IMG/VR virus record: IMGVR_UViG_3300021957_003272
Location: 1-20,489 of that record
Reading direction: 5' to 3' (one strand)
Length of the DNA: 20,489 nucleotides
Source of the DNA: a virus
A program made the translations under genes and the position numbers. A model generated the notes under the pieces. It saw only the letters and a list, made by a program, of their open reading frames with translations. It was not told the DNA's origin and did no database searches. Positions 3,736 through 20,489 of this stretch are shown piece after piece. Within the stretch, counting starts at the first letter, position 1; every line of letters starts with the position of its first letter.

Positions 3736-3741
3736 TGTACT

Positions 3742-5595
3742 ATGACCTCCGTATCTCTTGTACAAGTTAATTTTCAGACAGGACCGCATCATTTAAACAG
3801 TTATTATTTGCCTTATAGTGTAGGCGCTCTATGGTCTTTTGTAGAGCAAAACAAACGAATAAAAGAAAATTATGATATATCTAATATAATTTTTAGACGT
3901 GAACCTCTAGAAGATTTAATCTTAAAACATAAAGATACGGATATTGTATTGCTAAGTTTATATATCTGGAACAAAAACTATTGCTTTAAATTAGCAGAGA
4001 AATTAAAAGAAGCATATCCAGATATAATAATTCTTATGGGCGGTCCTGAATTACCATGGAGGAACGATGACTTCTTTGAAAAATATCCTTTTATAGATAG
4101 TATAGTTATAGGAGAAGGAGAACTAGCATTACAGCATATTTTATTACAACATCTAGATGGCCAAGAAATTGATAAAGTTAATAAATTTGAAAGAATGAAA
4201 GAATTAGACTTACCTAGTCCTTATCTAAATGGAATGTTTGATCAATTAGTTAAAGAACATACAGATATAGAATGGGTTCCTACTATAGAAACGGACAGAG
4301 GATGTCCTTACAGTTGTACTTTTTGTGACTGGGGTAGTGCAACTGCAAGTAAAATGTATAAATTTTATTTTGATAGAATAGATTTAGAACTTGATTGGAT
4401 AGCAAAACATAAATTACCGTACCTTTCTCTAACATCAAGCAATTTTGGAATTTTTAAAGATAGAGATGTTAAGATTGCAGAAAAAATAGTAAAACATAAT
4501 AAAGAAACCGGGTGTCCTAACGGATTGAGCGTAAGTTATGCCAAAAATAGTAATGATACAGTAGTAGATATTGTTAAAATGTTTACAAATGCAAAAATAC
4601 AGACTGGTGTTACCTTAAGTTTGCAAACAACAAGTGATCATGTTTTAGAAAATATAAAAAGAAAAAACATGAAGATAAATTCCATTACTGAAGTTACTGA
4701 TCTTGCCAATAAAAATCATCTTCCGGTACTAACAGAATTAATTTTAGGAATGCCCGGAGAGGACAGTATCTCTTGGCGTAATACTTTAGAACAAGTAATA
4801 CAGAATAATATTTTAAATTTAGATGTTTATTTCTTACAACTATTAATAAATTCTCCAATGTATGTAAAACAAATTAAAGATTATAATCTTCAAACGTTTG
4901 AAGCATTTGATTTCTTTTACGGTGTACACACAGGTGATTTTTTAGAAGACAGAAAAATTGGGATAGCAGAATCTATAGAAGTAATACAATCAACAAATAC
5001 ATTTAATAAAGAACAACTTATAGATGAAAGTATATTTACATGGTTTGTATTAGGTTTTAACATGTATGGTATTTCAAATATATTATCTAAATATTTATTT
5101 GATACAACTAATTATTCTTATATGGAATTTTATCAATCTTTATATGAATCCTTACTTAAAGAAGACAAATATTTTTCAACTTGGATTAAACAAATAAAAG
5201 ATGGTATTTATAGATGGCAAGACACTGGATATATGGATGCTGATATCGGAGGACTTAGTATTCAGGGTTGGCAGTATTTCCATTCTCTCATGCCAATTAT
5301 TCAAAATAATGATTTAGTTGACCATTATATAAATTTTGTTGCTGATCATTTTAGTAACAAAGTTGACGAAAAAGTACTAAATGACTATAAAAAACTATCT
5401 AAACATCAAATTAAACAGTTTAATAGATATATAACTTACGAAAAAATACTAGAATTAGAATCTGGTGCTTTTGGAGAAACTGTAAAGATAGTTGATAGAT
5501 TCAATCAGTTTCCTAAAAATATAACAGAACATTTAGAATTTCTATTTTTTGGCAGACGTAGAAGTTGGCACATGAATATAATTCTTGACAAATAG
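3742..5595 (+). CDS. Radical SAM protein with B12-binding-like N-terminal domain
   Basis: A 617-residue protein with a Rossmann-like N-terminus of the cobalamin-binding kind (DIVLLSLYIWN about 67-77, LMGGPELPW 98-106, VIGEGE 122-127). It lacks the base-on DxHxxG motif, as do many B12 radical SAM proteins. The radical SAM core follows: C188-x3-C192-x2-C195 in RGCPYSCTFCDWG ligates the 4Fe-4S cluster, and ELILGMPGED further on fits the barrel. About 200 C-terminal residues are unlike anything I recognise and may fix substrate choice. Proteins of this layout carry out C- or P-methylation, ring contraction or other radical chemistry. It ends the cassette begun by the amidinotransferase, with only 6 nt between it and the SDR gene; AAGGA at 3725-3729 is a distant ribosome binding site. 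The reaction is not predictable from the sequence. Confidence 0.88.
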   Translation: MTSVSLVQVNFQTGPHHLNSYYLPYSVGALWSFVEQNKRIKENYDISNIIFRREPLEDLILKHKDTDIVLLSLYIWNKNYCFKLAEKLKEAYPDIIILMGGPELPWRNDDFFEKYPFIDSIVIGEGELALQHILLQHLDGQEIDKVNKFERMKELDLPSPYLNGMFDQLVKEHTDIEWVPTIETDRGCPYSCTFCDWGSATASKMYKFYFDRIDLELDWIAKHKLPYLSLTSSNFGIFKDRDVKIAEKIVKHNKETGCPNGLSVSYAKNSNDTVVDIVKMFTNAKIQTGVTLSLQTTSDHVLENIKRKNMKINSITEVTDLANKNHLPVLTELILGMPGEDSISWRNTLEQVIQNNILNLDVYFLQLLINSPMYVKQIKDYNLQTFEAFDFFYGVHTGDFLEDRKIGIAESIEVIQSTNTFNKEQLIDESIFTWFVLGFNMYGISNILSKYLFDTTNYSYMEFYQSLYESLLKEDKYFSTWIKQIKDGIYRWQDTGYMDADIGGLSIQGWQYFHSLMPIIQNNDLVDHYINFVADHFSNKVDEKVLNDYKKLSKHQIKQFNRYITYEKILELESGAFGETVKIVDRFNQFPKNITEHLEFLFFGRRRSWHMNIILDK

Positions 5596-7009: not shown

Positions 7010-7017
7010 GATAAATA
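7010..7017 (+). promoter_or_regulatory. Late promoter box, predicted leaderless start for the neck gene
   Basis: GATAAATA followed by 5 nt and then the ATG at 7023. With T4 late promoter geometry (box at -13 to -6) +1 falls on the A of the ATG. No Shine-Dalgarno lies between the upstream stop (7000) and the ATG. Confidence 0.6.
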
Positions 7018-7022
7018 GTAGT

Positions 7023-7784
7023 ATGCCAATAGATCAAATAGGATATAAAAGTAGAGAAGAACTTATTAAAGAGATACAACTACGTCTGGCTGATGGTATT
7101 GTTGATGTTGAATTAGACAGAGCACATTATGATGTAGCCATAGATAAGTCTTTAGCAATTTATAGACAACTAAGTGCTGGTAGTGTTGAAGAAAGTATAA
7201 TATTTTTTACAACACAAGATGGCGTAACTGAGTATACATTACCAGATGAAGTAATGGAAGTAAGAAGACTTTATCGTAGAGGTATAGGCTCTAATAGTGG
7301 CGGCGGAACAAACTTCGATCCATTTGACGTTGCATTTAATAACATGTATATGCTACAAGCAGGACAAGTAGGTGGACTAGCAGTATTTGATGCCTTCTCA
7401 CAATATAAAGAAACAATTGGTAGAATATTTGGAAGTGAATATAATTTCCTTTGGAATAGAAATACTAAAAGATTAAAGATATTAAGAAACGTTAGGCATG
7501 AAGAAGAAATTGCAGTAGGCGTATATAACTTTATACCGGAAAGTATTTTATTAAAAGACGTTGGTTCTAACCCATGGTTGGCCGCTTACGCACTAGCACA
7601 ATCTAAAATGATGCTAGGAGAAGCAAGAAGCAAATACACCAGTGGGCTTCCAGGAGCCGGTGGTGCAATACAGTTAAATGGTGATGCCTTAAAAGCAGAA
7701 GGACAGACAGAAATAGAAAGCCTTAAAGAAAGACTGCATAATATGGAAGAAGGTAATACTCCTCTAGGATTTGTGATAGGATAA
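7023..7784 (+). CDS. 13: Neck protein, T4 gp13-like
   Basis: 253 residues. The N-terminal segment (I-Q-L-R-L-A-D-G-I-V-D-V-E-L then AIDKSLAIYRQLS) matches the gp13 opening in which a short helix, a VEL strand and an ALELY helix follow each other. The C-terminal half has FLWNRNTKRLKILRN, NPWLAAYALAQSKMMLGEARSKY, a Gly-rich LPGAGGAIQLNGDAL and a final helix, as in gp13 proteins. In T4 gp13 closes filled heads and receives the tail with gp14. The T4 protein is about 55 residues longer. A late promoter box sits 5 nt before the ATG and no ribosome binding site is visible. The stop overlaps the dNMP kinase ATG by one base, so the two are probably coupled. No gp14 or gp15 homologue is seen nearby. 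Confidence 0.75.
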   Translation: MPIDQIGYKSREELIKEIQLRLADGIVDVELDRAHYDVAIDKSLAIYRQLSAGSVEESIIFFTTQDGVTEYTLPDEVMEVRRLYRRGIGSNSGGGTNFDPFDVAFNNMYMLQAGQVGGLAVFDAFSQYKETIGRIFGSEYNFLWNRNTKRLKILRNVRHEEEIAVGVYNFIPESILLKDVGSNPWLAAYALAQSKMMLGEARSKYTSGLPGAGGAIQLNGDALKAEGQTEIESLKERLHNMEEGNTPLGFVIG

Positions 7785-8446
7785 TGATAATAGGTATTTG
7801 CGGTTTTATAGGCAGTGGCAAAGATACAGTTGCTAATATGTTTGTAGAACGTGGATGTGTTCATGACAGTTTTGCGGCACCCCTTAAAGATTTATGTTCC
7901 AGCATTTTTGGTTGGGAAAGATCTATGCTGGAAGGCGATACTATTGAAAGTAGAGATTTCAGAGAAACATCTGATATGTTTTGGACTAGAAAATTAGGCG
8001 TACCGAACTTTACTCCTAGACTAGCATTACAACTTTTAGGTACGGAAGTTTTAAGAAATCACTTTGATCAGAATATTTGGCTAAACAGTTTAGAATACCG
8101 TATAAGAAAACAAATAGAAAATGCTCCATGTACAGTTGTAAGTGATGCGAGATTCAGAAATGAATTAGATCTTATAAAAGAAATGGGCGGTGTTATCATT
8201 TGGGTGCAACGTGGAGAACTACCTGAATGGTTTGAAACAGCAAAGACGGCACACGAAAACGTTGTAAGCAGAAAGATAATGCAGACAAAATACAGAGACG
8301 TTCATGAGAGTGAGTGGAATTGGGCAGGCTACCCAGTTGATTACGTTATAGATAATAATGAAACCCTCGAAGATCTAGCCAAACAAGTTGAAAGTATCAG
8401 AGATTGGAAAACTGGTAAGTTTCAACAAACACTTAAAATAGTTTAA
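7784..8446 (+). CDS. 1: Deoxynucleoside monophosphate kinase, T4 gp1-like
   Basis: A 220-residue P-loop kinase that in T4 phosphorylates dNMPs, including the modified 5-hydroxymethyl-dCMP, for phage DNA synthesis. The Walker A loop GFIGSGKDT is at 7-15, APLKD at 32-36 lines the NMP site, RLALQLLGTEVLR at 79-91 is typical of the family, DARFRNE at 121-127 is the characteristic acidic-basic motif, and HESEWNW at 174-180 precedes the C-terminal helix. Length is near that of T4 gp1 (241). The one-base TAATG overlap with the neck gene places a nucleotide metabolism gene inside the structural operon, so it would be made late. Whether a modified base is a substrate here cannot be told. Confidence 0.9.
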   Translation: MIIGICGFIGSGKDTVANMFVERGCVHDSFAAPLKDLCSSIFGWERSMLEGDTIESRDFRETSDMFWTRKLGVPNFTPRLALQLLGTEVLRNHFDQNIWLNSLEYRIRKQIENAPCTVVSDARFRNELDLIKEMGGVIIWVQRGELPEWFETAKTAHENVVSRKIMQTKYRDVHESEWNWAGYPVDYVIDNNETLEDLAKQVESIRDWKTGKFQQTLKIV

Positions 8447-8496
8447 TACCAACTAATACCTCTAAATTCCGTAAATACGGCGTAATTACATATTTT

Positions 8497-8504
8497 GATA
8501 AATA
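8497..8504 (+). promoter_or_regulatory. Late promoter of the tail sheath gene
   Basis: GATAAATA lies 40 nt before the sheath ATG (8545). The predicted +1 is at about 8510, giving a 35-nt leader with AGGAG at 8534-8538. Confidence 0.7.
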
Positions 8505-8509
8505 AGTGT

Positions 8510-8523
8510 ATACGACAACGTAT
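8510..8523 (+). promoter_or_regulatory. Possible 5'-terminal hairpin of the sheath mRNA
   Basis: ATACG-ACAA-CGTAT forms a 5-bp stem with a tetraloop that starts exactly at the predicted transcript start. It leaves the AGGAG site free downstream. A stem at the 5' end could slow mRNA decay, which would suit a protein needed in many copies. The stem is short, so this is tentative. Confidence 0.4.
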
Positions 8524-8544
8524 CTAATATATTAGGAGAAAAAT

Positions 8545-11349
8545 ATGGCAACATTAGTAAGTCCTGGTGTTAGCATTAGTGTATCAGACGAGAGTTTTTA
8601 TGCTCCGGCTGGAACAGGTTCAGTTCCTTTAATCGTAATAGCAACTGCTCAAGATAAGAGTAGTCCAGACGGTTCAGGTACTGCAGGTTATACAACTTCT
8701 GCAACAGCGGGTAAATTATACAAAATTTCAAGCCAAAGAGAATTATTACAAACATATGGTAATCCAACATTTAAATCAAGTGGCGGAACTCAACTACACG
8801 GTGACGAAAGAAACGAATACGGCCTATTAGCCGCATACAGTTTCTTAGGCGTAGCCAATAGTGCATATGTTTTAAGAGCAAATGTAGATTTAGACGCATT
8901 GGCACCTAGTGCTACAGCACCTACTACAGCACCAGCAGATGGTTCATATTGGTTAGACACAACATCTACAGTCATCGGTATTAAAATACATGATGGTACA
9001 AATTGGTTAAACAAAGTAGCAAAAACAACTGAAGCATCAGATTTAGAATCTAATGGAAAACCAAAAATTGCTTTTGGTAAAAAAGATGATTTTGCAGTAG
9101 TTTATACAGATAATGCAGGTGTTACTCAAGCAATATTCAAAGTATACCAAAAAACATCAAACAGTACTTGGGATTTAATTGGGTCCAACGATTGGAACAC
9201 CAATACATCTACAGCATATGCTGAAATTGGTTATAACTATCAGTTACCAGCAACTAGATCAGGCGGCGGTGCCTTACAATCAGGTGATGTATTTGTAGCA
9301 ATTAATGAACCAAATAACGGAAGTACATTTGGATTAAAATTATATAGTGCTAGTGCAAATCAGTTTGCATCAGTAACTTCTTTTGCTGTTAAATCAATGC
9401 AAGAAGCATATGCAGAAAGCAGACACGGTACAACACCTTTAGTCGGTGATATCGTTATTGATGTATCAGGTGATGGCACTAATGCAAAGGATGGTCAAGC
9501 AACATTTGAATTAAAAAGACATAACGGCGGAACAACAGTAACAGCAGAAAGTAGTGCTAACGTAAGTGTATTAGACCTTACATCACACACTGGTGATGCT
9601 GTAAGTATTTACATGAGAGTCAATGACGGAGCCAATGTCGCTGTTAAATTTAGAACAGATGGCGATGCAGACGGTAATGCAAGTGTTGATGATATGATTA
9701 CAGATATAAACTCAGCAATTAGTAATGCAAATGCATCTTTATCTAATACAGCAAATGTTATTGCAGTAAATAATAATGGTAAAATTAAAATTACCAACTC
9801 TGATAATAAAGATATCTTGCTATGGAACGGTAACGTTGCAGGATTTGGTCCAGCACAACTTAACTTAACAGCAGATGATCCTTACAGTAACTTTAAAGCA
9901 TTAAGTTTCACAGCAAAAAGTACAGCAATAACAGGTACTTTAGCAGACGGAACATTATGGTATGACTCAGTTGTAAGTGCAGACAATGTAGATCTTTTAG
10001 AAAATGATGGAACCAACGGATGGCAAACATTTTCAGGTGATGTTCAAATTAAAACAACAGTACCAACTAAGAAAGCAGATGGTGTAAGCAGTTTATCAAA
10101 CGGCGACGTATGGATTAGCGGTAGTGATTTAGAAAACTATCCAAAAATTTATAAGTATAGTACAGCATTAACTGGCTGGACACTAGTTAATAGTGCAGAT
10201 CAAGACAGCCCAGACGGCGTTATATTTGCTGATTTTAGATCAAGTACAGCAGGTTCTATTCTTAGCGGGGCACCATCTAGTAGTACTTCACCAGTAGGAA
10301 TACTTGGTTGGAACAAAGCACTTAGTGGCGGTAATGTTAAGAAATGGAACTCATTACTTTCATACTGGCAAGATGCAAGTGGTAACAAGTCTGATGGCTC
10401 ACCTTACATGTTAAGAAAAGCACAAAGGCAAATGATTGTTAAAGAACTTCAATCAGCAATAACAAGTAATCAAGATATCAGAAACGAAACTAATAGATTT
10501 AATATTGTTTCTGTTCCTGGATATTCTGAACTTGCAGATGAAATGATTGCATTAGGTGTAGATAGAAAGAACACAGTTTTTAGTGTTATAGACTCACCAT
10601 TTAGATTGGCTTCAGATGCTACAAGTACAAGTGCTTGGGCAAACAACAGTAACCTTGCAGGTGAAAACGGCGAAGACGGTTTACTAGCAAGTGATCCTTA
10701 TGCGGCTGTATATTATCCACACGGACTATCTACTAATCTAGATGGAGCAAGTGTGTTTGTACCAGCATCACATATGGCATTGAGAACTATTGCATTTAAT
10801 GATCAGGTGGCTTTCCCATGGTTTGCACCAGCAGGATTCCAAAGAGGTCTTGTAAGTAATGCATCTAATACTGGATACATTGATGGAGCAACAGGCGAAT
10901 TTGTACCAGTAGCATTAAATGAAGGTCAAAGAGATAGTTTATATACTGATAAAATTAATCCAATTGGGAATTTCCCAGGAAGAGGAATTGCAGTATTTGG
11001 ACAGAAAACTCTTAACCCGGTATCAAGTGCATTGGATAGAGTAAACGTTGCAAGACTAGTTGTTTACCTACGTGAACAATTAGATGACGCAGTTAAGCCA
11101 TTCTTGTTTGAACCAAATGACGAAGTAACTAGAGCAAATGCGAAAGTAGTTGTAGATAGATTGCTTGGTGAACTTGTTTCTCAAAGAGGTTTATTTGACT
11201 TTATCACAGTTTGTGATACTTCAAACAATACTCCAGCAAGAATTGATAGAAATGAATTACACATTGACATTGCTATACAGCCAGTCAAAGCAGTTGAATT
11301 TATTTATATTCCAATTAGAATCCAAAATACATTGGGCTCAACAGCATAA
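8545..11349 (+). CDS. 18: Contractile tail sheath protein, T4 gp18-like, enlarged
   Basis: 934 residues, well above T4 gp18 (659). The N-terminus (LVSPGVSISVSDESF, 4-18) and the C-terminal 320 residues (VPGYSELADEMIALG, YPHGLSTNLDGASVFVPAS, VAFPWFAPAGFQRG, the NVARLVVYLREQL helix, VEFIYIPIRIQ) are the conserved sheath core that packs round the tube and links neighbouring subunits. The extra length lies in residues about 112-600, rich in Ser, Thr, Asn and Gly. These hold at least three look-alike modules with a D/N-G-x-(Y/L/V)-W start and a later G-W or N-W: 131-155, 467-495 and 517-548. Such regions face outward in gp18. The gene has its own late promoter, a strong AGGAG and a following terminator, so it forms a single-gene transcription unit. 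Confidence 0.95.
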   Translation: MATLVSPGVSISVSDESFYAPAGTGSVPLIVIATAQDKSSPDGSGTAGYTTSATAGKLYKISSQRELLQTYGNPTFKSSGGTQLHGDERNEYGLLAAYSFLGVANSAYVLRANVDLDALAPSATAPTTAPADGSYWLDTTSTVIGIKIHDGTNWLNKVAKTTEASDLESNGKPKIAFGKKDDFAVVYTDNAGVTQAIFKVYQKTSNSTWDLIGSNDWNTNTSTAYAEIGYNYQLPATRSGGGALQSGDVFVAINEPNNGSTFGLKLYSASANQFASVTSFAVKSMQEAYAESRHGTTPLVGDIVIDVSGDGTNAKDGQATFELKRHNGGTTVTAESSANVSVLDLTSHTGDAVSIYMRVNDGANVAVKFRTDGDADGNASVDDMITDINSAISNANASLSNTANVIAVNNNGKIKITNSDNKDILLWNGNVAGFGPAQLNLTADDPYSNFKALSFTAKSTAITGTLADGTLWYDSVVSADNVDLLENDGTNGWQTFSGDVQIKTTVPTKKADGVSSLSNGDVWISGSDLENYPKIYKYSTALTGWTLVNSADQDSPDGVIFADFRSSTAGSILSGAPSSSTSPVGILGWNKALSGGNVKKWNSLLSYWQDASGNKSDGSPYMLRKAQRQMIVKELQSAITSNQDIRNETNRFNIVSVPGYSELADEMIALGVDRKNTVFSVIDSPFRLASDATSTSAWANNSNLAGENGEDGLLASDPYAAVYYPHGLSTNLDGASVFVPASHMALRTIAFNDQVAFPWFAPAGFQRGLVSNASNTGYIDGATGEFVPVALNEGQRDSLYTDKINPIGNFPGRGIAVFGQKTLNPVSSALDRVNVARLVVYLREQLDDAVKPFLFEPNDEVTRANAKVVVDRLLGELVSQRGLFDFITVCDTSNNTPARIDRNELHIDIAIQPVKAVEFIYIPIRIQNTLGSTA

Positions 11350-11368
11350 GTATAGTAACTTAAACATT

Positions 11369-11396
11369 AAAAGGGCGGTTTTTACTGCCCTTTTTT
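11369..11396 (+). terminator. Rho-independent terminator after the tail sheath gene
   Basis: AAAAGGGC and GCCCTTTT form an 8-bp stem round a 10-base, T-rich loop, and the right arm runs into six T. It is the clearest intrinsic terminator in the window and separates the sheath gene from the tube transcript. Confidence 0.9.
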
Positions 11397-11439
11397 GTGT
11401 CAGAATTAAAACTAGAGTTAATTATTTTAGCCGTATAAT

Positions 11440-11447
11440 GATAAATA
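11440..11447 (+). promoter_or_regulatory. Late promoter of the tail tube operon
   Basis: GATAAATA, 34 nt before the tube ATG, with predicted +1 at about 11453. It follows the sheath terminator directly, so the tube operon must be restarted here. The short leader carries a perfect 12-nt palindrome (11458-11469) immediately before AGGAG (11470-11474). Confidence 0.7.
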
Positions 11448-11457
11448 TTGTTATATA

Positions 11458-11469
11458 AAAGAGCTCTTT
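11458..11469 (+). repeat. 12-nt perfect palindrome in the tube mRNA leader
   Basis: AAAGAGCTCTTT reads the same on both strands and lies between the predicted transcript start and the Shine-Dalgarno. As RNA it allows only a weak 4-bp stem with a 4-base loop, so a regulatory role is uncertain. Confidence 0.35.
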
Positions 11470-11481
11470 AGGAGAAGAAAA

Positions 11482-12120
11482 ATGGCAGTATCAAGTGCAA
11501 CAACAGAAACCAAAAGTAAATTTGGTGTTCCGGTAACAGGACAAACTGGTTCCGGTATTTTAATGCCGAAATTAAAATATAGATTTAGAGTAAGTCTATT
11601 AGGTAACTTCGGTGGAAATACAGAAACTAAAGTTTTAACTCAAAATGTTCAGTCTGTAAGTAGACCTAAAATTACTTATGAAGAAGTAATGGTAGAAAGT
11701 TACAACTCAAGAGTTTATCTACAAGGTAAACATGCTTGGGAACAAATCACTTTGACTGTAAGGGACGACATCACAAACCAAGTTGCAAAACAGGTAGGTG
11801 CACAGGTTCAAAGACAGTTAAACCACTTCCAACAATCAACACCTGCTTCAGGTAGTGATTATAAATTTGACATGCAAATAGAAATATTAGACGGTGTCAA
11901 TGCAGGTGCAAGTGAAGTTTGGTTCTTAGAAGGATGTTTCTTACAAAATGTTGACTACAGTGAATCAGATTATTCTGCAAATGACCAAGTAACAGTAACT
12001 ATGCAAATTAGATACGACAACGCGGTACACTTTGAAGGTGATAATGATATTAACGGTAGAACAGTAAGTGGTAATCCTTTCCCAGATACAGTAGGAACAG
12101 GCACAACAACTTTAGGTTAA
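11482..12120 (+). CDS. 19: Tail tube protein, T4 gp19-like
   Basis: 212 residues (T4 gp19 has 163). After a polar N-terminal stretch, LKYRFRVSLLGNFG (31-44) opens the tube beta-barrel. VLTQNVQSVSRPKITYEEV (51-69) and HAWEQITLTVRDD (83-95) are the expected strands, and the long QV-rich helix (101-119) and YDNAVHFEG (177-185) close the fold. This subunit forms the inner tube through which DNA passes. A late promoter, a very good AGGAG 7 nt from the ATG and a preceding terminator point to strong separate expression. A Gly/Thr-rich tail ends the protein. It is followed after 14 nt by a second tube-like gene. Confidence 0.9.
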   Translation: MAVSSATTETKSKFGVPVTGQTGSGILMPKLKYRFRVSLLGNFGGNTETKVLTQNVQSVSRPKITYEEVMVESYNSRVYLQGKHAWEQITLTVRDDITNQVAKQVGAQVQRQLNHFQQSTPASGSDYKFDMQIEILDGVNAGASEVWFLEGCFLQNVDYSESDYSANDQVTVTMQIRYDNAVHFEGDNDINGRTVSGNPFPDTVGTGTTTLG

Positions 12121-12134
12121 TCTAAGAGACTAAC

Positions 12135-13271
12135 ATGAGGTTTCTTAAGTTTGGAGGCAATCGGAAATTCTTTGCAAGGGATTTCCGGAATGCCTATCAA
12201 TTTCGTCCAGACATCGCGCCACCTAGACAAAAGTTTCAGGGGTATGTAAATTTTGTTATTAACAGAGATGTAGGCGAATTAGGCAATACCGTAGATGGCA
12301 AAAATTTTAGAACTAGAATAAGTTCCTTAATTAAAACAGCAACACTTCCAGATGTTGGTTTCAAAACAGAAACTAAAAATAAATATAACAGGAAAAAAAT
12401 TGTACAAACAGGTTTAGAGTTTGGGCCCGTTAGTTTTACTGTTCACGATACAATCCAAAATGAGTGGCTAACATTGTTTATGAGATACTACTCTCATCTA
12501 TATATGAATCCTAGAAATAAATTTTCAGGTGACGATCGTGATCCTGTAGCCTTTTTTAGATCTAGTAATCAATACTCTGAATCAAAACACGGAGTACAAC
12601 CTAGTACTAATCAAGCATATGACAGTGATGCTTTTGGATTTAATGTTTCTGAAACACCATATTTCTTTGAAAGAATAGATTTCATTTTATATCACGGTAA
12701 TAAAGGTGTACAGTATTCTGTTACTAATCCTGTAATGAATAGAATTAGATTTAGTGAAATAGATTATAGTTCAAGTGAAATTATGGATTTTCAAATGGAG
12801 TTTGATTTTGAAAACTTCACAACATCGAATAAATTAAATTTTGATCTAACAGAAACTGATTTAGAAAGATTTGAAACTATTAGTAAAGCAGAAAATTTAC
12901 CTGGCTTTGCAAGTGGTACAAGGAAACCAGTAGCCTTGGAAAATCCTGTAGATTTAAAAGTTACAGGCGATTCTACAGAACAGAGAGCAAGAGCTTTTCA
13001 GGCTTTAAGTAGAGTAAACGAAGTAATAGATGATGGTAGTGACACTAACTTAGTTGAAACATATACAGGAGAACCTGTGTTAGGCGGAGAGGGTAGCGAT
13101 AAAGGATGGCTTAATGGCTTCTTAGAAGATAATCCTTTTGGAAGAATAGTAGATAGAGCGATTGGTGCCAAAATAAATGGGCAAGATCCAGAAATTGCAG
13201 GGCAAGATGCATTAAAAGATGAATTAATAAATGCAGTAAATGTCAATAGATGGACAAATAAAGGTAGTTAA
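12135..13271 (+). CDS. Second tail-tube-like protein (tube paralogue or gp54-type tube initiator)
   Basis: 378 residues. The basic N-terminus (about 1-35) leads into a barrel-like region: GYVNFVINRD (36-45), SLIKTATLPDVGFKTETKNKYNRKK (about 64-88), FGPVSFTVHDTIQNEWLTLFMRYYSHLY (about 96-123) and FERIDFILYHG (about 179-189). The 'HDT-x-N-x-W-x-x-L(F/Y)-x-x-Y' feature and its place right after gp19 favour a protein of the tube fold, such as a baseplate-proximal initiator like T4 gp54 or a specialised tube subunit. The last 130 residues are acidic and Gly-rich with no family I recognise. Only a weak ribosome binding site (GAGA) is seen, so it is probably read from the tube mRNA. The assignment to gp54 is an inference. 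Confidence 0.65.
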   Translation: MRFLKFGGNRKFFARDFRNAYQFRPDIAPPRQKFQGYVNFVINRDVGELGNTVDGKNFRTRISSLIKTATLPDVGFKTETKNKYNRKKIVQTGLEFGPVSFTVHDTIQNEWLTLFMRYYSHLYMNPRNKFSGDDRDPVAFFRSSNQYSESKHGVQPSTNQAYDSDAFGFNVSETPYFFERIDFILYHGNKGVQYSVTNPVMNRIRFSEIDYSSSEIMDFQMEFDFENFTTSNKLNFDLTETDLERFETISKAENLPGFASGTRKPVALENPVDLKVTGDSTEQRARAFQALSRVNEVIDDGSDTNLVETYTGEPVLGGEGSDKGWLNGFLEDNPFGRIVDRAIGAKINGQDPEIAGQDALKDELINAVNVNRWTNKGS

Positions 13272-13273
13272 AT

Positions 13274-13705
13274 ATGAGTACCAGTCTATATAACACATTT
13301 GGAAACGAGTTAAGATACGATGTATTGCAATCTACATTAACAACATTTTTAGACAATGCAACCATAAAATTTCCATTACCAGAAGCAAGTTCCGAAATAC
13401 TAGGAAATATTCAAGATAATCTAGATACACTTAATCCTGAACTCTATGTTCAAATAAAAACCAGATTACAAAAAATTGGGTTCCAAGAAGCAAATGCAAA
13501 TGCTTTGTCTATAGTCTTATATAGAGTAGCAGAAAATTTAAATATAAATCCTTTAGAATTTTTTTCTATAAATGAAAATACTTTAAAAATTACTAAAGAT
13601 GCTTATGAGGCCATTAATGCTAAAAGGCCAGTGGGTAATAGAATTAATTTAGTGACACCTAAGAGTAATTCTGATAGTCCAGTAAGCAAATTCATAAAGA
13701 AATAA
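13274..13705 (+). CDS. Unknown protein between tube and head-completion genes
   Basis: 143 residues, no family recognised. It looks mainly helical, with a hydrophobic helix at about 66-92 (LQKIGFQEANANALSIVLYR) and a Pro/Ser-rich basic tail ending SKFIKK. AAAGG about 9 nt before the ATG may serve as ribosome binding site. There is a 2-nt gap to the upstream gene and none to the nuclease gene, whose ATG follows the stop directly. A minor virion or assembly part is likely from position alone. Confidence 0.7.
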   Translation: MSTSLYNTFGNELRYDVLQSTLTTFLDNATIKFPLPEASSEILGNIQDNLDTLNPELYVQIKTRLQKIGFQEANANALSIVLYRVAENLNINPLEFFSINENTLKITKDAYEAINAKRPVGNRINLVTPKSNSDSPVSKFIKK

Positions 13706-14176
13706 ATGCCTAAATTCGCAAAAGGCAAATATGAGATATTAAATGCCAATAAATTTGTAGGCGGCAAGCCTCCTACCTATAGGAGCAGTTGGGAACTAGC
13801 ATTTATGCGTATGTGTGATGCACACCCTAACATTACTAAATGGGCAAGTGAAAATGTAAAGATACCATATAGGAGCCCTCTAGATGGAAAGTATCATAAT
13901 TATATTCCTGATTTTATGATACAATATACAGACAAAAATGGTGCTCAACATGTGGAACTTATAGAAATCAAACCTGCTAACCAAACTACATTAGAAAATG
14001 CTCGTAGTAAAGGGCAAGCCATACAGACACATATAAACGCCGCTAAGTGGACTGCGGCACAAGAATGGTGCAAACGTAAGGGTATACGGTTTAAAGTAAT
14101 CAATGAAGATCAGATTTTCTCAAACAAAAAGCCTCGTAAGGCGAAAAAACGCATCTCTAAACCTAGAGTTAAATAA
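13706..14176 (+). CDS. 4: Head-completion nuclease, T4 gp4 (gp50) family
   Basis: 156 residues, close to T4 gp4 (about 150). The opening KFAKGKYEILNANKFVGG with YRSSWELAFMRMCD (25-38) is characteristic. A PD-(D/E)xK nuclease core is visible as Glu30, Asp69 in IPDF and Glu87-x-Lys89 in IEIKP. The protein fold is TnsA-like. In T4 this protein finishes the packaged head, probably by trimming the DNA end, before tail joining. The C-terminus is highly basic (KPRKAKKRISKPRVK), fitting DNA contact. The ATG directly follows the previous stop. The stop codon lies within the late promoter of the next gene. Confidence 0.88.
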   Translation: MPKFAKGKYEILNANKFVGGKPPTYRSSWELAFMRMCDAHPNITKWASENVKIPYRSPLDGKYHNYIPDFMIQYTDKNGAQHVELIEIKPANQTTLENARSKGQAIQTHINAAKWTAAQEWCKRKGIRFKVINEDQIFSNKKPRKAKKRISKPRVK

Positions 14177-14179
14177 ATA
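14172..14179 (+). promoter_or_regulatory. Late promoter box, predicted leaderless start for the small terminase
   Basis: AATAAATA (one mismatch to TATAAATA) followed by 5 nt and ATG at 14185. It overlaps the stop of the nuclease gene. The predicted +1 is the A of the ATG and no Shine-Dalgarno is present. Confidence 0.5.
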
Positions 14180-14184
14180 CTAAT

Positions 14185-14667
14185 ATGACTAAAAAACTTG
14201 AAGAAGAATTTAATCTACCTCCTATCGAAGAAGTAACTAATACTGATGAGGAAGTTGTGCCTACTGTAGAAGAAACACAGGAAGTCATAGAGGAAGTACA
14301 AGGTGCTTTAAGTGTAAGTGAAAAAATTAATTTAGCATTTAAAGAAGTTAAAGGTTTAGAAAGCCACGAAGTTGAAATGAATGACATAGCCAAAAAGGCT
14401 ATAGACAGTTATGAACAACTAATGCAATTAGGCATGAATGTAAGTGATATGGCGGCTGGTAAAGTATTTGCAGAAGCAAGTAATATGTTAAAGATAGCCT
14501 TAGATGCCAGTGATGCTAAAACAAAAGCAAAGTTACAACAAATAGATTTGATGCTTAAAAAAGCAAGAATTGATAAGTTTGATAATAAGGGTACAGAAGC
14601 AGAGTCAGTTCAAGCAACAGTATTTGATAGAAACGATTTGCTAAAAATTATTAAAGGCGAAAATTAA
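14185..14667 (+). CDS. 16: Small terminase subunit, T4 gp16-like
   Basis: 160 residues, as in T4 gp16 (164). An acidic N-terminus (about 1-40) is followed by a long helical region. The family signature is the central helix pair: IDSYEQLMQLGMNVSDMAAG (72-91), AEASNMLKIALDASDAKTKAKLQQIDLMLKKARID (96-130), then a C-terminal VFDRNDLLKIIKG. The oligomeric ring recognises DNA and regulates the large subunit's ATPase and nuclease. The gene is separated from the large terminase by about 2.4 kb, whereas in T4 the two adjoin. Its promoter arrangement suggests a leaderless transcript. Its stop codon overlaps that of the opposite-strand small gene. Confidence 0.85.
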   Translation: MTKKLEEEFNLPPIEEVTNTDEEVVPTVEETQEVIEEVQGALSVSEKINLAFKEVKGLESHEVEMNDIAKKAIDSYEQLMQLGMNVSDMAAGKVFAEASNMLKIALDASDAKTKAKLQQIDLMLKKARIDKFDNKGTEAESVQATVFDRNDLLKIIKGEN

Positions 14668-14774
14668 GGCCTTACCCACTCACCTTTTTTAAAAACCACA
14701 ACCTCACCGTATTGATCTAAAGTGTATTCTCCTTCAACAGGATTTTGAGGTTCTCTTACTTTTATTTTTGACAT
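14664..14774 (-). CDS. 36-residue protein on the opposite strand, unknown
   Basis: A short frame fills the gap between the small terminase and the next gene. It reads M-S-K-I-K-V-R-E-P at the start and G-E-Y-T-L-D-Q-Y-G-E-V-V-V-F-K-K-G-E-W in the middle. Alternating strand-like residues with the G-x-Y-x-x-D-x-x-G-x-x-V-x-F-x-x-G-E-W-V pattern look like a real compact beta fold, not random AT-rich translation. Its ATG is preceded by GCTAAATA-N5, the same spacing as the leaderless late genes. The stop overlaps the small terminase stop tail to tail. The + strand of this gap has no ATG. No family recognised; it would be the only gene in the window read in this direction. Confidence 0.5.
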   Translation of the reverse strand: MSKIKVREPQNPVEGEYTLDQYGEVVVFKKGEWVRP

Positions 14775-14779
14775 ACAAT

Positions 14780-14787
14780 TATTTAGC
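14780..14787 (-). promoter_or_regulatory. Candidate late promoter box of the opposite-strand small gene
   Basis: On the - strand GCTAAATA (one mismatch to GATAAATA) lies 5 nt before the ATG. It stands back to back with the + strand box at 14804-14811, only 16 nt apart, making a divergent promoter pair. Confidence 0.4.
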
Positions 14788-14803
14788 AGAAAATTTACAA
14801 GAT

Positions 14804-14811
14804 GATAAATA
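14804..14811 (+). promoter_or_regulatory. Late promoter of the 14834 operon
   Basis: GATAAATA with predicted +1 at about 14817. This gives a 17-nt leader that carries GGAG (14824-14827) 6 nt before the ATG at 14834. Confidence 0.65.
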
Positions 14812-14833
14812 AGTACTATAATTGGAGTTTTTT

Positions 14834-15532
14834 ATGGAATTAAAACAATATATTTCAGAAGCATTTAGTAAAGAGTATGGCTTCAGAGTAAAAATTGCAG
14901 GAGACTGTGATACTAATACATTAGACATGCTAGAAAAATGTTTACAAAAATACAATCTTGTGAGTGCAACACCTTGGAAACGTACTCCTATAGAAGAAAA
15001 TCCACAGGAATTTGTTAGAGCCAAAGGCGCAACATTTACTAGTGAAGTCTGTAGTAGTGATATTGTTCTTAAGTATCCAGTCAACGAAAGAATACTTGAA
15101 GTTTGGTTAGCAGTAAATTTAGGCTTAAACCATGAAAGAGTATTAGTTTACGGAGTTAAAGAACCAAGAAGAATAGAAAGCGAAATTGCTGAAATTAGAC
15201 ATGAGGAAGATAAAGACAGATATGTTTCAGAAGAAGATGCAGAATTAAACAAAGAAGAACAGGCACATTACGAAAATGAAAATGTGGATGTCGACTATAA
15301 AGAAGCATTTTTTGGTGAAGAGTTTAATAAAAAATTCCTAGAAGAACTACAAAAAATTAAAGATGAAAAAGGTGCTGATTATTTCAGAGCTTATCCAAGT
15401 AAAGATGAACTTATGGGCGATGACCTTAAGCAAATGCACGATGACCTTATGGGACAGCCAAATATGGGTAGAGGTGCAGAAAGCACAAAACAAGTTGATA
15501 CTATTTCACAACACGGCTCAAGGAGCAGATAA
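14834..15532 (+). CDS. Acidic unknown protein, possible capsid- or core-associated protein
   Basis: 232 residues from the ATG at 14834. A TTG at 14822 lengthens the frame, but it precedes the GGAG site, so the ATG is preferred. The N-terminal part (about 1-105: MELKQYISEAFSKEYGFRV, LDMLEKCLQKY, then VKEPRR) looks like a compact alpha/beta domain. From about 108 the chain is highly charged (Glu/Asp/Lys), with FFGEEFNKKFLEELQKIKDEK forming a probable amphipathic helix and a Gln/Ser/Gly tail. I have a faint memory of similar 'SKEYxxRxKxAG' openings in cyanophage virion proteins but cannot name a function. The TAATG overlap with the next gene suggests coupling of the two acidic proteins. Confidence 0.7.
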   Translation: MELKQYISEAFSKEYGFRVKIAGDCDTNTLDMLEKCLQKYNLVSATPWKRTPIEENPQEFVRAKGATFTSEVCSSDIVLKYPVNERILEVWLAVNLGLNHERVLVYGVKEPRRIESEIAEIRHEEDKDRYVSEEDAELNKEEQAHYENENVDVDYKEAFFGEEFNKKFLEELQKIKDEKGADYFRAYPSKDELMGDDLKQMHDDLMGQPNMGRGAESTKQVDTISQHGSRSR

Positions 15533-16161
15533 TGAAATCAGGTAATTTAATCGAAAACAATGCAGTTGCTACCGGTTCTAACATTATTAAAAAAAGTGTT
15601 GGGGGCGAAAAATCAGGACAAATGACAGCAAGAGCATTGGATCAAGTTGCAAAAGGCGGTCCTGTAAATAGACAATTTGTTGATGCATTACAACCTTATG
15701 CAGAAATTTTAAATAAAATTTTAGTTAATCCTATGCTTAGACAAAGATTCGAGCAAATGATAAAACAGTTAGGAAATGAAGTTCCAACTGAATCAGTTAA
15801 CGAAGCAATGAGCGATGCTTATGGTGTTGTAAATGCGGAACCTGAAGAAGTAGACGGGCACGTTGCTTTCACACAATCAAAAAATACTGAAAAAGGTTCA
15901 GTAACAATTAACGCAAGTGGTGAAGACATGCAAGAACTTGCAAGAGTTTTAAAACTTGCAGGACTTACGTTGCCAAAAGATATGAATCCTGAAGAACCAG
16001 AAGCACATGATGAACCAGAAGCAGAAGAACCTGTACATATAGAAGTTCCTTCTGATGATGAACCTTGTGATGATTGTTCAGATGACGACGTATCATATAG
16101 TACTGATAAAGAGGTTTTAGTAAATTACCTCAAAGACAAGTTAGCAAAGCGACTTTCATAA
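15532..16161 (+). CDS. Acidic unknown protein, probable virion or assembly protein
   Basis: 209 residues. The N-terminal half is polar with a helical segment (about 45-80: LQPYAEILNKILVNPMLRQRFEQMIKQL). The segment VTINASGEDMQELARVLKLAGL (about 123-144) is a 'xINASGED-helix-LAGL' module that I associate with T4-like marine phage structural proteins. A very acidic stretch follows (about 150-188, with two Cys in PCDDCSDDD) and a basic C-terminal helix (KDKLAKRLS). The ATG overlaps the previous stop by one base. Acidic tracts of this kind occur in scaffold-like proteins; that role is inference only. Confidence 0.65.
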   Translation: MKSGNLIENNAVATGSNIIKKSVGGEKSGQMTARALDQVAKGGPVNRQFVDALQPYAEILNKILVNPMLRQRFEQMIKQLGNEVPTESVNEAMSDAYGVVNAEPEEVDGHVAFTQSKNTEKGSVTINASGEDMQELARVLKLAGLTLPKDMNPEEPEAHDEPEAEEPVHIEVPSDDEPCDDCSDDDVSYSTDKEVLVNYLKDKLAKRLS

Positions 16162-16165
16162 ATTT

Positions 16166-17041
16166 ATGCTTACCGATCTATATGTAGACGGAACAAGTTA
16201 TGCCTCAGGTTGGGGTAAAGGCCACGCAAGAAACTTATTTAAAACATCGGGTGCCTATTCCTGGGTAGACAGATTTTCAGAAATTACTAATTGTAACAAT
16301 GTTTGGAATCACTCCTTAGTTGCAAAACCTTGCGATATGCAAGTATTTGATATACGAAACTTCTGCAATCAATACTACAATAAATTTAAAACATTTGATA
16401 AACTTTTTGTTATAGCAGAGTATTCTTATATTACATATAGAAGTATAGGAATAGTTAAGGCAAGAGAAGGTATATTTAAAAATCAAGATATTATTCCTGT
16501 AGTAATGGCAAAAGGAACAGAAGTGAATTCTAATGAAGCAGGAGGTTTTGGATATATCATACAATATGTAAGAAAGAGCGATGATTATTTAAATATACAA
16601 GAACCTTTATTTGTAAAGATACCAGAAGAACATATAGATCCTAATGATCTTAAAAGAGTTAACGAATTTGCAACACAATGGTTGCTAACAAGATTTACAA
16701 ATTATATAGAACATTTAGATTATATGTATAAAAACCTATCCCTAATTAAAAACTTTTTAATTAAAAGAAATATTCCTTTTGTAATATATTCTGCCGCAGT
16801 ATCTGATAATGCTCCAGAACAGCGTTTTATAGATCAAACTTTAAAAACATTAGCAAAAGATAAAAGGATTATTCCTTTAAAAGAGTTTTCAGGAAAATCC
16901 TTATCTTCAAAACATTCCATAGAAGAATATACAATACACCCTGATAAAATGGGACATATGGCTATCGCTGAACACTTATATGACTGGGTCTTAAAACACG
17001 ATCTTACAAAAAAACCTAATTCCTCTATAATTTCAATATAA
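16166..17041 (+). CDS. SGNH/GDSL-hydrolase-like protein
   Basis: 291 residues. The opening strand LYVDGTSYASG (5-15) fits SGNH block I with Ser11 as possible nucleophile. VWNHSLVAKP (46-55) supplies the block III Asn48, and HPDKMGHMAIAEHLYDWV (258-275) fits block V with His258 as catalytic base. The acid normally three residues before that His is Tyr255 here, with Glu254 at -4, so the triad is not fully standard. No signal peptide is seen. Family members deacylate or deacetylate polysaccharides and lipids, and phage examples sit on tail fibres or act on host envelope sugars. There is no clear ribosome binding site; it follows the upstream gene after 4 nt. It lies directly before the large terminase gene, whose promoter overlaps its stop. 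Confidence 0.7.
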   Translation: MLTDLYVDGTSYASGWGKGHARNLFKTSGAYSWVDRFSEITNCNNVWNHSLVAKPCDMQVFDIRNFCNQYYNKFKTFDKLFVIAEYSYITYRSIGIVKAREGIFKNQDIIPVVMAKGTEVNSNEAGGFGYIIQYVRKSDDYLNIQEPLFVKIPEEHIDPNDLKRVNEFATQWLLTRFTNYIEHLDYMYKNLSLIKNFLIKRNIPFVIYSAAVSDNAPEQRFIDQTLKTLAKDKRIIPLKEFSGKSLSSKHSIEEYTIHPDKMGHMAIAEHLYDWVLKHDLTKKPNSSIISI

Positions 17042-17044
17042 ATA
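17037..17044 (+). promoter_or_regulatory. Perfect late promoter box, predicted leaderless start for the large terminase
   Basis: TATAAATA then 6 nt then ATG (17051). It overlaps the stop of the SGNH gene. The predicted +1 is at 17050-17051 and no Shine-Dalgarno precedes the ATG. Confidence 0.65.
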
Positions 17045-17050
17045 ACTATT

Positions 17051-18634
17051 ATGGCTAGAGGAACAGCAGATACCAGTCTGGTTAAACCCGGGTATAGTAA
17101 AACCGCATACACACCAGACACTATAGAAGATTTTAAAAATTGTGCAGATCCTGTGACTGGACCTTTGTACTTTATGACAAACCATGTAAAAATACAACAC
17201 CCTACAAAAGGAGGTATATCATTTGATCCTTTTTCTTATCAGTTAGACCTAATAGAAAATTATAACAATTACAGATACAGTATTAACATGCTGGGCAGAC
17301 AGATGGGTAAAACCACTGTGGCGGCAGGTTACTTACTTTGGTATGCAATGTTTAAACCAGATAGTACAATACTAGTTGCGGCTCACAAACAAGCAGGTGC
17401 TCAGGAAATTATGCAACGTATACGTTATGCATATGAAAGTGTACCAGATCATATCAGAGCAGGAGTCACAGAATACAATAAAGGAAGTTTAAGTTTTGAT
17501 AACGGTAGTAGAATTGTAGCAAGTACAACAACTGAAAACACTGGTAGGGGTATGTCCTTAACCTTAGTATACTTAGATGAGTTTGCATTCGTACCACCTA
17601 GAATAGCCAGTGAGTTTTGGACTTCTCTTTCACCAACATTAGCAACGGGTGGTAAATGTATTATTACAAGTACGCCTAATAGTGATGAAGATACTTTTGC
17701 TATGATTTGGAATCAAGCAAATAAATTATTTGATGAACACGGTAATGAACAAGACTTGGGTGTGAATGGATTCAAACCTATGTTGGCAATATGGGATCAA
17801 CATCCTGATAGGGACGCCGTGTGGGCAACAGAAGAACGTGGAAGAATAGGAGAAGAACGTTTTAGACGTGAACACGAATGTGAATTTGTTATATATGATG
17901 AAACACTAATAGACCCTTTAAAGTTAATAGATATGATTGGCACTAACCCTATAATAAAAATGGGGCAAGTTCGTTGGTATAAAAATATTTCACCTGAATG
18001 TATGTACATTGTAGGCCTTGATCCTAGTACAGGAACAGGTGGAGATAATGCCGCAATAGAGATATTAGAACTTCCTAGTATGATTCAAGTAGGTGAATGG
18101 CAACACAATAAAACTCCTATAGAAGGACAAATCAGAGTCATGATGGAAATCATGCAGTACATCAAAGAGCAAGGTGCTTACCAGATTTATTGGAGTGTGG
18201 AAAATAATGCTATTGGTGAAGCCGCTCTGGTTGTTATCAGAGACACAGGCGAAGAAAGTTTTCCAGGAGAAATGTTACACGAACCCAAAAAGATACAGGG
18301 TAAGAAAGGAAGACGCGGATATCATACCACTCACAAAAGTAAAATTGAATCATGTTTAACTTTAAAAAGATTAGTGGAACAAGATAAAATTATTTTAAAA
18401 AGTAAGGCTTTAGTAAGTGAACTTAAAAACTTTGTTTCAAATGCAAATTCTTTTAAGGCAAAACCAGGCGGTTCAGACGACTTGGTAATGTCTTTAGTAC
18501 TATGCTTAAGAATGGTAGATTTTGTGAGTACATTTGAGGACGATGTATATAATGTAGTAAATAGTGGTCTCGGTTGGGACGACTTCAATAGTGATGATGG
18601 TGATGATTACGACCAACCCATGCCATTAATTTAA
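17051..18634 (+). CDS. 17: Terminase large subunit, T4 gp17-like
   Basis: 527 residues. The packaging ATPase carries Walker A GRQMGKTT (82-89), Walker B LVYLDE (172-177, Asp176 and catalytic Glu177) and the coupling motif STPNS (207-211). The RNase H-like headful nuclease has Asp324 in GLDPS, Glu384 in SVENN and Asp476/Asp477 in GGSDDLVMS. A short acidic C-terminal tail follows. All catalytic residues are present, and the length is somewhat below T4 gp17 (610). It packages DNA into the prohead at the portal with gp16. It has a perfect late box 6 nt before the ATG and no ribosome binding site. The next gene starts 1 nt after its stop. Confidence 0.97.
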   Translation: MARGTADTSLVKPGYSKTAYTPDTIEDFKNCADPVTGPLYFMTNHVKIQHPTKGGISFDPFSYQLDLIENYNNYRYSINMLGRQMGKTTVAAGYLLWYAMFKPDSTILVAAHKQAGAQEIMQRIRYAYESVPDHIRAGVTEYNKGSLSFDNGSRIVASTTTENTGRGMSLTLVYLDEFAFVPPRIASEFWTSLSPTLATGGKCIITSTPNSDEDTFAMIWNQANKLFDEHGNEQDLGVNGFKPMLAIWDQHPDRDAVWATEERGRIGEERFRREHECEFVIYDETLIDPLKLIDMIGTNPIIKMGQVRWYKNISPECMYIVGLDPSTGTGGDNAAIEILELPSMIQVGEWQHNKTPIEGQIRVMMEIMQYIKEQGAYQIYWSVENNAIGEAALVVIRDTGEESFPGEMLHEPKKIQGKKGRRGYHTTHKSKIESCLTLKRLVEQDKIILKSKALVSELKNFVSNANSFKAKPGGSDDLVMSLVLCLRMVDFVSTFEDDVYNVVNSGLGWDDFNSDDGDDYDQPMPLI

Positions 18635-18635
18635 A

Positions 18636-19877
18636 ATGATTCCTGCTAATATTTATAGCAATGAAAATATCAAAACCCATCTAGGTGTTTTTACAATCCC
18701 TAATGGATTTGAAGAAGAACTTGTATTAAAAGTACTTAAAAAAGGACAAAAAGAATTCTTTAATTGTTTTATACATGACACATATATGACAGAACAATTT
18801 TATGAAATAAAACCGTCATCATATTTTATACAAGATGATAAATCTATTGGTGTCTATCATATTAAGTTTAATTTAAATTTGTTTAAAAACGGATATATAG
18901 ATTCCGAATTTCTTTTTATCTTTCCTGATATTGTTTTGCAGGAACATATAGATAATAATTGTATCATAGTTTTTGATATAAGCACTGATAATATAATGCC
19001 TGAAAAAGGACAGACAGAATGGGAAGATGCATTAGTAGATGTAATTGAAAATACAGTTACACATTATAAATTAAATAAAAAAGGATGTCTATTAATCTCT
19101 TGTTTTGATAAAACCAAACAATATCTAAATATGCCAACAATAGGTGTCAATACAGTATTTCAGTTCTTTAAAGATATTAATAAAGAAAATGTTTTAGATA
19201 TTAAAGATAGAAAATATAAAATACGATGTTTTAATGGCACACATAGAATGCATAGAATAAAATTTTTAGAAAAAATTATAGATAAACAAGGATTAAACGG
19301 TAATAATATTTCTTATTGTTTAAAAGGTGACATACAAAATCAATTAGAAGCCATAGATAATGAAATTGATAATGATAAAATAAAAGGATTATTGCCTTTA
19401 TCAGGAGACGATGCTGGTGTAACAGATTTTGCAAACAATTCAAAAGATGTTAAAAGGACCTATCATAAGACTTGTGTTCCAAGTAATTACATAGACTTTA
19501 TAACAGAAACAGAATATTACAGAAGAGAAGTCTATTTAACTGAAAAAACATCTAGAGCAATTATTTGTAAGACTCCTTTCGTATTACTGGCAACACCGTA
19601 TTCTTTAGAAACACTTAAACAAAAAGGGTTTAAAACATTCAGTAAATATTGGGACGAGTCCTATGATATTGTTTTAAACCATAATAAAAGGTTAGATATG
19701 GTTTTCAAATTATTTGAATTTTTTAATGATCTTAGTAAAAATGATTTAGAAACTATATTAGATGACACGAAAGATATACTTGAATACAATAATCAGCACT
19801 ACAAATGGTATCAAAAAGAATATATGTGTTTAGACTCTTGTAAAAAATATTTTGAAAAACTAAATTTTGATAAATAG
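18636..19877 (+). CDS. Unrecognised phage family protein (full-length relative of the gene at the left edge)
   Basis: 413 residues. No named family recognised. The N-terminal half has IVFDISTDNIMP (about 111-122) and KKGCLLISCFDKTKQYL (148-164), suggesting an alpha/beta domain. RCFNGTHRMHRIKFLEKI (197-214) is a basic hinge-like segment. The C-terminal region shows TEKT (302-305), TPFVLL (313-318), GFKTFSKYWDESYD (331-344) and Arg352, matching the partial protein at 3-647 in order and spacing. The layout of two alpha/beta halves and an E-K...PF segment would fit a GT-B type glycosyltransferase, but I see no diagnostic donor-binding motif. It starts 1 nt after the large terminase stop without a Shine-Dalgarno, so it is likely co-translated. 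Its last two codons and stop form part of the next late promoter. Confidence 0.75.
   Translation: MIPANIYSNENIKTHLGVFTIPNGFEEELVLKVLKKGQKEFFNCFIHDTYMTEQFYEIKPSSYFIQDDKSIGVYHIKFNLNLFKNGYIDSEFLFIFPDIVLQEHIDNNCIIVFDISTDNIMPEKGQTEWEDALVDVIENTVTHYKLNKKGCLLISCFDKTKQYLNMPTIGVNTVFQFFKDINKENVLDIKDRKYKIRCFNGTHRMHRIKFLEKIIDKQGLNGNNISYCLKGDIQNQLEAIDNEIDNDKIKGLLPLSGDDAGVTDFANNSKDVKRTYHKTCVPSNYIDFITETEYYRREVYLTEKTSRAIICKTPFVLLATPYSLETLKQKGFKTFSKYWDESYDIVLNHNKRLDMVFKLFEFFNDLSKNDLETILDDTKDILEYNNQHYKWYQKEYMCLDSCKKYFEKLNFDK
19869..19876 (+). promoter_or_regulatory. Late promoter box, predicted leaderless start for the right-edge gene
   Basis: GATAAATA then 5 nt then ATG (19882), built from the last codons and stop of the preceding gene. 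The predicted +1 is the A of the ATG. There is no Shine-Dalgarno. A second TATAAATA lies at 19887-19894 inside the gene. Confidence 0.6.
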
Positions 19878-19881
19878 TTGT

Positions 19882-20489
19882 ATGGCTATAAATATCAATA
19901 CAGTATCTGAAAAACTATTTAATATACTTAAAGGGTTTGGGTACGAAGTAAAAAGTTACAATAAAGAGGGTAAATTAGTTATAAATCCTCAAGAAGCAAC
20001 ACGTTTTGCTGTCGCTGAGCCTAATCTCTTAGCAAGAATAGATGTAAACGACAAAACAATAGTACTTGCAACAAGTAATGATCTTAGTGAATCTCCTGTT
20101 AGGGGTATGGTAAAAAACCTAGCACAGGATTACTTATTAAATTTTGATTACAGAGTATTTGATAAAAAGTTAAAACCAAAAGGTGAAAACGTAGACATTG
20201 CCAAAAATGCGGAGAAAGATATGGCAGAGGTTATGGAAGAAATTAATGAAGCAAGTTTAGGTAAAATGACTGGTAGCAGAAAATCCAGTTATCAGCCACT
20301 AGCAGATAATGTTAAAATTATTGTAAGACACAACAAAGACGTTAATGAAGAAGTACGTGGTGCTAGAAGCAGAAACATTCACAGTATATTAATACAACGT
20401 GGAGAAGAGAAATTTAAGATGGCAGAAAACAATCTGTCAGCCGCAAGAGCAATGGCAAGACATTTGCATAATGGCGGAGAAACTTTTGA
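19882..20489 (+). CDS. 5' part of a probable virion protein, runs off the window
   Basis: The frame is open for 202 codons to the right edge without a stop, so the gene is partial. The N-terminal region (VSEKLFNILKGFGYEVKSYNKEGKLV, then INPQEATRF) is followed by a helix-rich acidic part (about 110-130) and a basic segment. The late part contains GARSRNIHSILIQRGEEKFKMAENNLSAARAMARH, an Arg/Lys- and Ala-rich helical stretch. I recall similar segments in large T4-like cyanophage structural proteins next to gp17, without known function. The late promoter box immediately before the ATG agrees with a virion role. Confidence 0.7.
   Translation, partial: MAININTVSEKLFNILKGFGYEVKSYNKEGKLVINPQEATRFAVAEPNLLARIDVNDKTIVLATSNDLSESPVRGMVKNLAQDYLLNFDYRVFDKKLKPKGENVDIAKNAEKDMAEVMEEINEASLGKMTGSRKSSYQPLADNVKIIVRHNKDVNEEVRGARSRNIHSILIQRGEEKFKMAENNLSAARAMARHLHNGGETF

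Follow-up and report, generated by a model that had tools for sequence, protein, structure and literature searches.

Why should a phage place its late-promoter box only five or six nucleotides (nt) before a start codon? The question is raised by the 20,489-base viral record IMGVR_UViG_3300021957_003272 (the window, meaning this whole stretch of DNA), which comes from a phage of the T4 superfamily with PHROGs matches for tail sheath, tail tube, head closure, neck, and large terminase. The closest cultured counterparts of its large terminase, gp17, are those of Pseudomonas phage PA5oct and kin (60% identity). At five gene starts in the window, a T4-type box is followed by 5 nt (6 nt at 17037-17053) and an ATG; the base before the ATG is T and a Shine-Dalgarno (SD) sequence is absent, all as a preliminary description of this DNA had reported. 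We consider it very probable that these are gp55-type late promoters at which transcription would begin on the A of the ATG, or a base or two away from it, giving leaderless mRNAs.

The first box, GATAAATA-GTAGT-ATG (7010-7025, + strand), belongs to a gp14-like neck gene whose product is a head-tail adaptor or neck protein (7023-7784, +; phrog_211, E 3e-30). AATAAATA-CTAAT-ATG (14172-14187, +) precedes the gene before the 14834 cluster, a putative small terminase gene (14185-14667, +) named from its position only, with a match to a family of unknown function (phrog_16202, E 1e-8). On the − strand, GCTAAATA-ATTGT-ATG (14772-14787) opens a conserved 36-codon reading frame (14664-14774, −). The 6-nt case, TATAAATA-ACTATT-ATG (17037-17053, +), opens gp17 (17051-18634, +; phrog_36964, E 1e-125). 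GATAAATA-GTTGT-ATG (19869-19884, +) opens the right-edge gene, which codes for a virion structural protein and is cut by the contig end (19882-20487, +; phrog_13484, E 1.5e-22). All five genes are predicted to be expressed from leaderless mRNAs.

TAAATA stands 5-6 nt before the ATG at five of about 22 gene starts in the window, where 0.046 would be expected (Poisson P 1.7e-9). The hexamer by itself shows no enrichment over the window as a whole (43 copies against 52 expected). The proposed comparison with shuffled sequence gave a divided answer: TAAATA-N5-ATG counted anywhere in the window is mildly enriched (4 versus 0.94, a count reached in 2 of 100 shuffles), and the pattern is decisive only at gene starts. 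The full octamer in the form TATAAATA-N5-ATG has no match in the window, because the first base of the octamer varies. The five sites are confirmed as real and not the work of chance.

Relatives were drawn from IMG/VR as 80 contigs with gp17 identities of about 70-90%, one of them 250 kb long. Together with the window they supplied 717 distinct gene starts, in which the distance from TAAATA to ATG is sharply confined: 144 starts have 5 nt and 19 have 6 nt, while 0-4 nt accounts for two and 7-8 nt for none. A further 14 starts have 9 nt, a class made up at least in part of the overlapping sequence TAAATAAATA (window example, 14170-14179), and a broad class with a far box begins at about 16 nt upstream of the start. 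An SD-like motif is present at 1 of the 163 short-spacing starts versus 143 of the 148 far-box starts, so the proposed division of late genes into a leadered mode and a short-spacing mode lacking SD sequences is seen at scale. In the 250-kb relative alone, the box stands exactly 5 nt before 26 genes and 4 or 6 nt before no gene, and six shorter relatives have 5-7 genes each at 5 nt. TAAATA is invariant in these counts by selection of the sites. The base before it is A in 82% of leaderless-type and 88% of leadered boxes, and the first base of the octamer is variable. In seven contigs (L063, L065, L067, L068, L073, L074, and L079), the orthologue of the gene at 14185 is preceded by TAAGTA in place of TAAATA, with the 5 nt to the ATG unchanged. 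This is a possible variant box, and boxes of this type are missed by the TAAATA counts.

Spacing at orthologous starts had been named beforehand as a refutation test, and the spacing is conserved. A distance of 5-6 nt is retained by 76 of 77 contigs for gp17, by 51 of 60 for the 14185 gene, and by 7 of 7 for gp14; the gene for the 36-residue protein keeps its spacing in 15 of the 16 contigs with a homologue. The box of the right-edge gene is kept in all 77 scored contigs; 59 of these run straight to the ATG at the short spacing, and the other 18 have a short leader with an SD sequence. Upstream of gp17, the DNA before the box diverges widely among distant contigs, and box and spacing stay. Among distinct frames at 5-nt spacing, the start codon is ATG in 85, GTG in three, and TTG in one; AUG is favoured by leaderless initiation (PMC3616915). 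The arrangement also occurs in IMG/VR at large. Of the 97 distinct sites with GATAAATAGTANT-ATG among the matches listed, 80 are gene starts, compared with 9 of 66 when one more base is inserted and 13 of 57 when three are, figures in which the gene-opening fractions are comparable between spacings and the site totals are not. Of the genes found in this way, two have matches among the tail completion proteins of cultured marine phages, and one is a gp17 with 79% identity to that of pelagiphage Mosig.

The place where transcription would start can be predicted from T4. The T4 late octamer spans -13 to -6 (PMC1524935), about one helical turn before the start (PMC2988020), and the sixth base downstream of the box would therefore be +1; at 5-nt spacing this base is the A of the ATG. 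The leadered promoters of the clade point to the same base. Taken as an independent check, 59 distinct leadered promoters include 55 with a purine at the sixth base after the box and 50 with a pyrimidine at the fifth, a pattern shared by no other position within 19 nt, and this initiator signature falls exactly where short-spacing genes have the A of their ATG. Short-spacing genes themselves have T (92%) or C (8%) as the fifth base after the box, and a pyrimidine stands before the ATG in all 50 distinct 5-nt cases. Most 6-nt cases have T as the sixth base, which would push the start on to the A of the ATG. The T4 placement and the leadered signature both support the preliminary description in its view that box geometry would put +1 on the start codon or one base before it.

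The sequences themselves show the box, its fixed and conserved spacing, the lack of an SD sequence, and the initiator signature of the leadered promoters; from these we infer where exactly the 5' end lies, that gp55 acts at short-spacing sites, and how the mRNAs are translated. A gp55-like late sigma would read the T4-type promoters of the short-spacing genes, and the late RNA polymerase would start on the A of the ATG, producing an mRNA with neither leader nor SD sequence. The 70S ribosome would then bind the 5'-terminal AUG, a known route for leaderless mRNAs (PMC9031893). At the sheath gene, the tube gene, and gene 14834, the same promoter would yield a short leader with a strong SD sequence. 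Leadered orthologues of the right-edge gene have a short leader inserted between promoter and gene, as in GATAAATAGTATT-AGGAGATAAACT-ATG, where the SD leader AGGAGATAAACT follows directly after box-N5. On the gp17 tree, the leaderless-type and leadered states of this gene have changed at least three times. The 250-kb relative encodes a gp55 homologue (E 7e-7); the window covers only part of a genome.

Some points weigh against leaderless transcription from these promoters. The geometry used to place the start in short-spacing genes is borrowed from T4. The first 40 nt of their coding regions are no less structured than those of genes with SD sequences (p 0.73), and transcription reading through from promoters farther upstream could supply these mRNAs in leadered form as well. 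Candidate partners were also considered. A search of seven clade records, mostly fragments, found no phage ribosomal protein S21; S21 genes occur in PA5oct (170985-171143), HTVC008M (91237-91392), and Mosig (9983-10132). A phage initiator tRNA was rejected, as the 250-kb relative carries only tRNA-Ala and tRNA-Thr. A simple tie to alphaproteobacterial hosts was likewise discarded, TAAATA-N5-ATG being wholly absent from the T4-like phages Cr30 of Caulobacter and phiM12 of Sinorhizobium.

TAAATA beside the ATG could instead be an AU-rich, unstructured ribosome-entry element and not a promoter, with transcripts that start farther upstream and internal initiation that needs no SD sequence. Several short-spacing genes lie close behind a gene on the same strand, where read-through is likely, and AU-rich unstructured start regions are able to support initiation without an SD sequence (PMC4117421). 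We regard this explanation as unlikely. Such an element would need no spacing fixed to one base, and the same box with the same following bases is found at leadered genes, far from the start, where the SD sequence does the ribosome binding. Leadered orthologues retain the box and place the SD sequence after it. In five contigs (L070, L071, L073, L074, and L079), the gp17 box comes right after a strong GC hairpin and its eight-T run, which together resemble an intrinsic terminator. This leaves little room for another gp17 promoter, and transcripts from upstream should stop there.

Alternatively, the promoters could be real and start 3-8 nt upstream of the ATG, leaving a tiny leader without an SD sequence. 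The start chosen by RNA polymerase can shift by a base or two, and the 19 starts at 6 nt and not 5 would suit such flexibility. The initiator signature of the leadered promoters lies at the sixth base after the box, and the pyrimidine before the ATG is found without exception at 5-nt spacing; we therefore think a tiny leader very unlikely. That stop codons (TAA, TAG) and short AT-rich intergenic gaps yield TAAATA near the next ATG by composition is hardly credible, even with window boxes overlapping the stop codon of the preceding gene at 14174, 17039, and 19875, since the empty neighbouring spacings already contradict it, T4, PA5oct, and P-SSM2 have 0, 1, and 4 genes at 5 nt with similar base composition, the box is kept behind terminators where no stop overlaps, and the gene-opening fraction of GATAAATAGTANT-ATG in IMG/VR falls when bases are added.

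Initiation on the ATG of the short-spacing genes would place them beside a second set of late genes that use the same promoter with a leader. As the preliminary description stated, genes 686, 8545, 11482, and 14834 have the box 22-40 nt from the start and an SD sequence; the latter reads GGAG or AGGAG. The predicted leadered promoter and SD sequence of the sheath gene (8497-8544, +) are conserved as far box and SD sequence in 34 of 34 contigs, and those of the tube gene (11440-11481, +) in 46 of 48. At gene 14834 (14804-14833, +), the far box is present in 65 of 65 contigs and the SD sequence in 64. The predicted leadered promoter and SD sequence of gene 686 (645-685, +) include two boxes. Behind it lies a non-structural block (686-5595) with a phrog_25854 protein, a nucleotide-sugar epimerase, and a large protein without a PHROG hit; the 250-kb relative has an orthologue of its first gene, 686, likewise preceded by a far box and an SD sequence.

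It had also been suggested that the two modes set low versus high copy number. As a hypothesis drawn from gene content this fits, with sheath and tube leadered and terminase and neck of the leaderless type. A PAAR-motif protein gene in the 250-kb relative is also leaderless-type. Against the idea, the low-copy portal gene is leadered, many leaderless-type genes have no known function, and translation in Caulobacter is as good from leaderless as from leadered mRNAs (PMC4117421). Leaderless-type genes in L187 and L190 that PHROGs labels as tail tube would break the low-copy trend; this assignment was rejected, their relatives being annotated as tail completion or sheath-stabiliser proteins. We offer tentatively a wider reading, in which T4-superfamily phages of at least two branches (the PA5oct-related clade and the pelagimyophages) may have built a genome-wide second translation mode into the late promoter. 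A block of late genes, many of them for low-copy assembly proteins, would be carried on leaderless mRNAs, which would give these proteins a yield, or an independence from SD-anti-SD pairing, distinct from that of the bulk structural proteins.

Leaderless phage mRNAs in the open-access literature searched are single cases such as lambda cI. The arrangement described here is systematic, with its 26 genes in one 250-kb record, is tied to one promoter class, and is conserved across dozens of contigs. It is switchable through gain or loss of a short SD leader and would offer a natural test bed for the effect of leaderless initiation on protein yield. Gene starts in such phages could be called to the base. 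A survey of pelagimyophages was unsuccessful in predicting late promoters (PMC7029224), and the short spacing may help to explain why these were missed. A further prediction is that leaderless mRNA is efficiently translated in the infected hosts of these phages, as it is in Caulobacter (PMC4117421).

Each of the two elements, the T4-type late promoter and the leaderless mRNA, is already known, and no report joining them systematically was found in the open-access literature searched, with most subscription papers outside its scope; their systematic union in a phage clade is apparently new. T4 late promoters (TATAAATA; late sigma gp55 with gp33 and gp45) resemble those of the clade in having the same box, serving late structural genes, and having no -35 element known to be needed. 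The T4 boxes lie mostly 14-40 nt upstream, with none at 5 or 6 nt, whereas roughly half of the clade's box-driven starts are predicted to have +1 on the ATG. Bacterial leaderless mRNAs (lambda cI, and 375 in Caulobacter and 171 in Sinorhizobium) have in common with the present set a promoter box that stands some 10-12 bp upstream of the start codon, the lack of an SD sequence, and initiation at AUG (PMC3160421, PMC4117421, PMC3616915). In contrast to those mRNAs, the predicted set of the clade is tied to a phage late promoter, serves an entire group of late virion and packaging genes, and stands beside leadered genes with strong SD sequences.

Among cultured phages, PA5oct (Arenbergviridae), which shares the tail and packaging gene order of the window, has only its one gene at 5 nt and no box before its gp17 start. 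P-SSM2 adds one gene at 6 nt to its four at 5 nt. Pelagibacter phage HTVC008M (Kyanoviridae) is from another T4-like branch and its gp17 is not of the short-spacing type, yet it has eleven genes at exactly 5 nt, the most among the cultured phages compared, with starts such as 7562 (+), 16007 (−), 18916 (−), 19456 (+), 31132 (+), 49760 (+), and 75830 (+); pelagimyophage Mosig has six. Annotated leaderless-type genes of HTVC008M include those for head closure, baseplate wedge, tail tube cap, DNA end protector, and tape measure proteins. In this phage (locus L110), the divergent DNA end protector and head closure genes, with starts at 18916 (−) and 18943 (+), are separated by 26 bp (18917-18942) that hold one late box per strand, each 5 nt from its own ATG. 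Judged across these genomes, the short-spacing trait is strong in the clade of the window, shared with pelagimyophages, and absent from T4.

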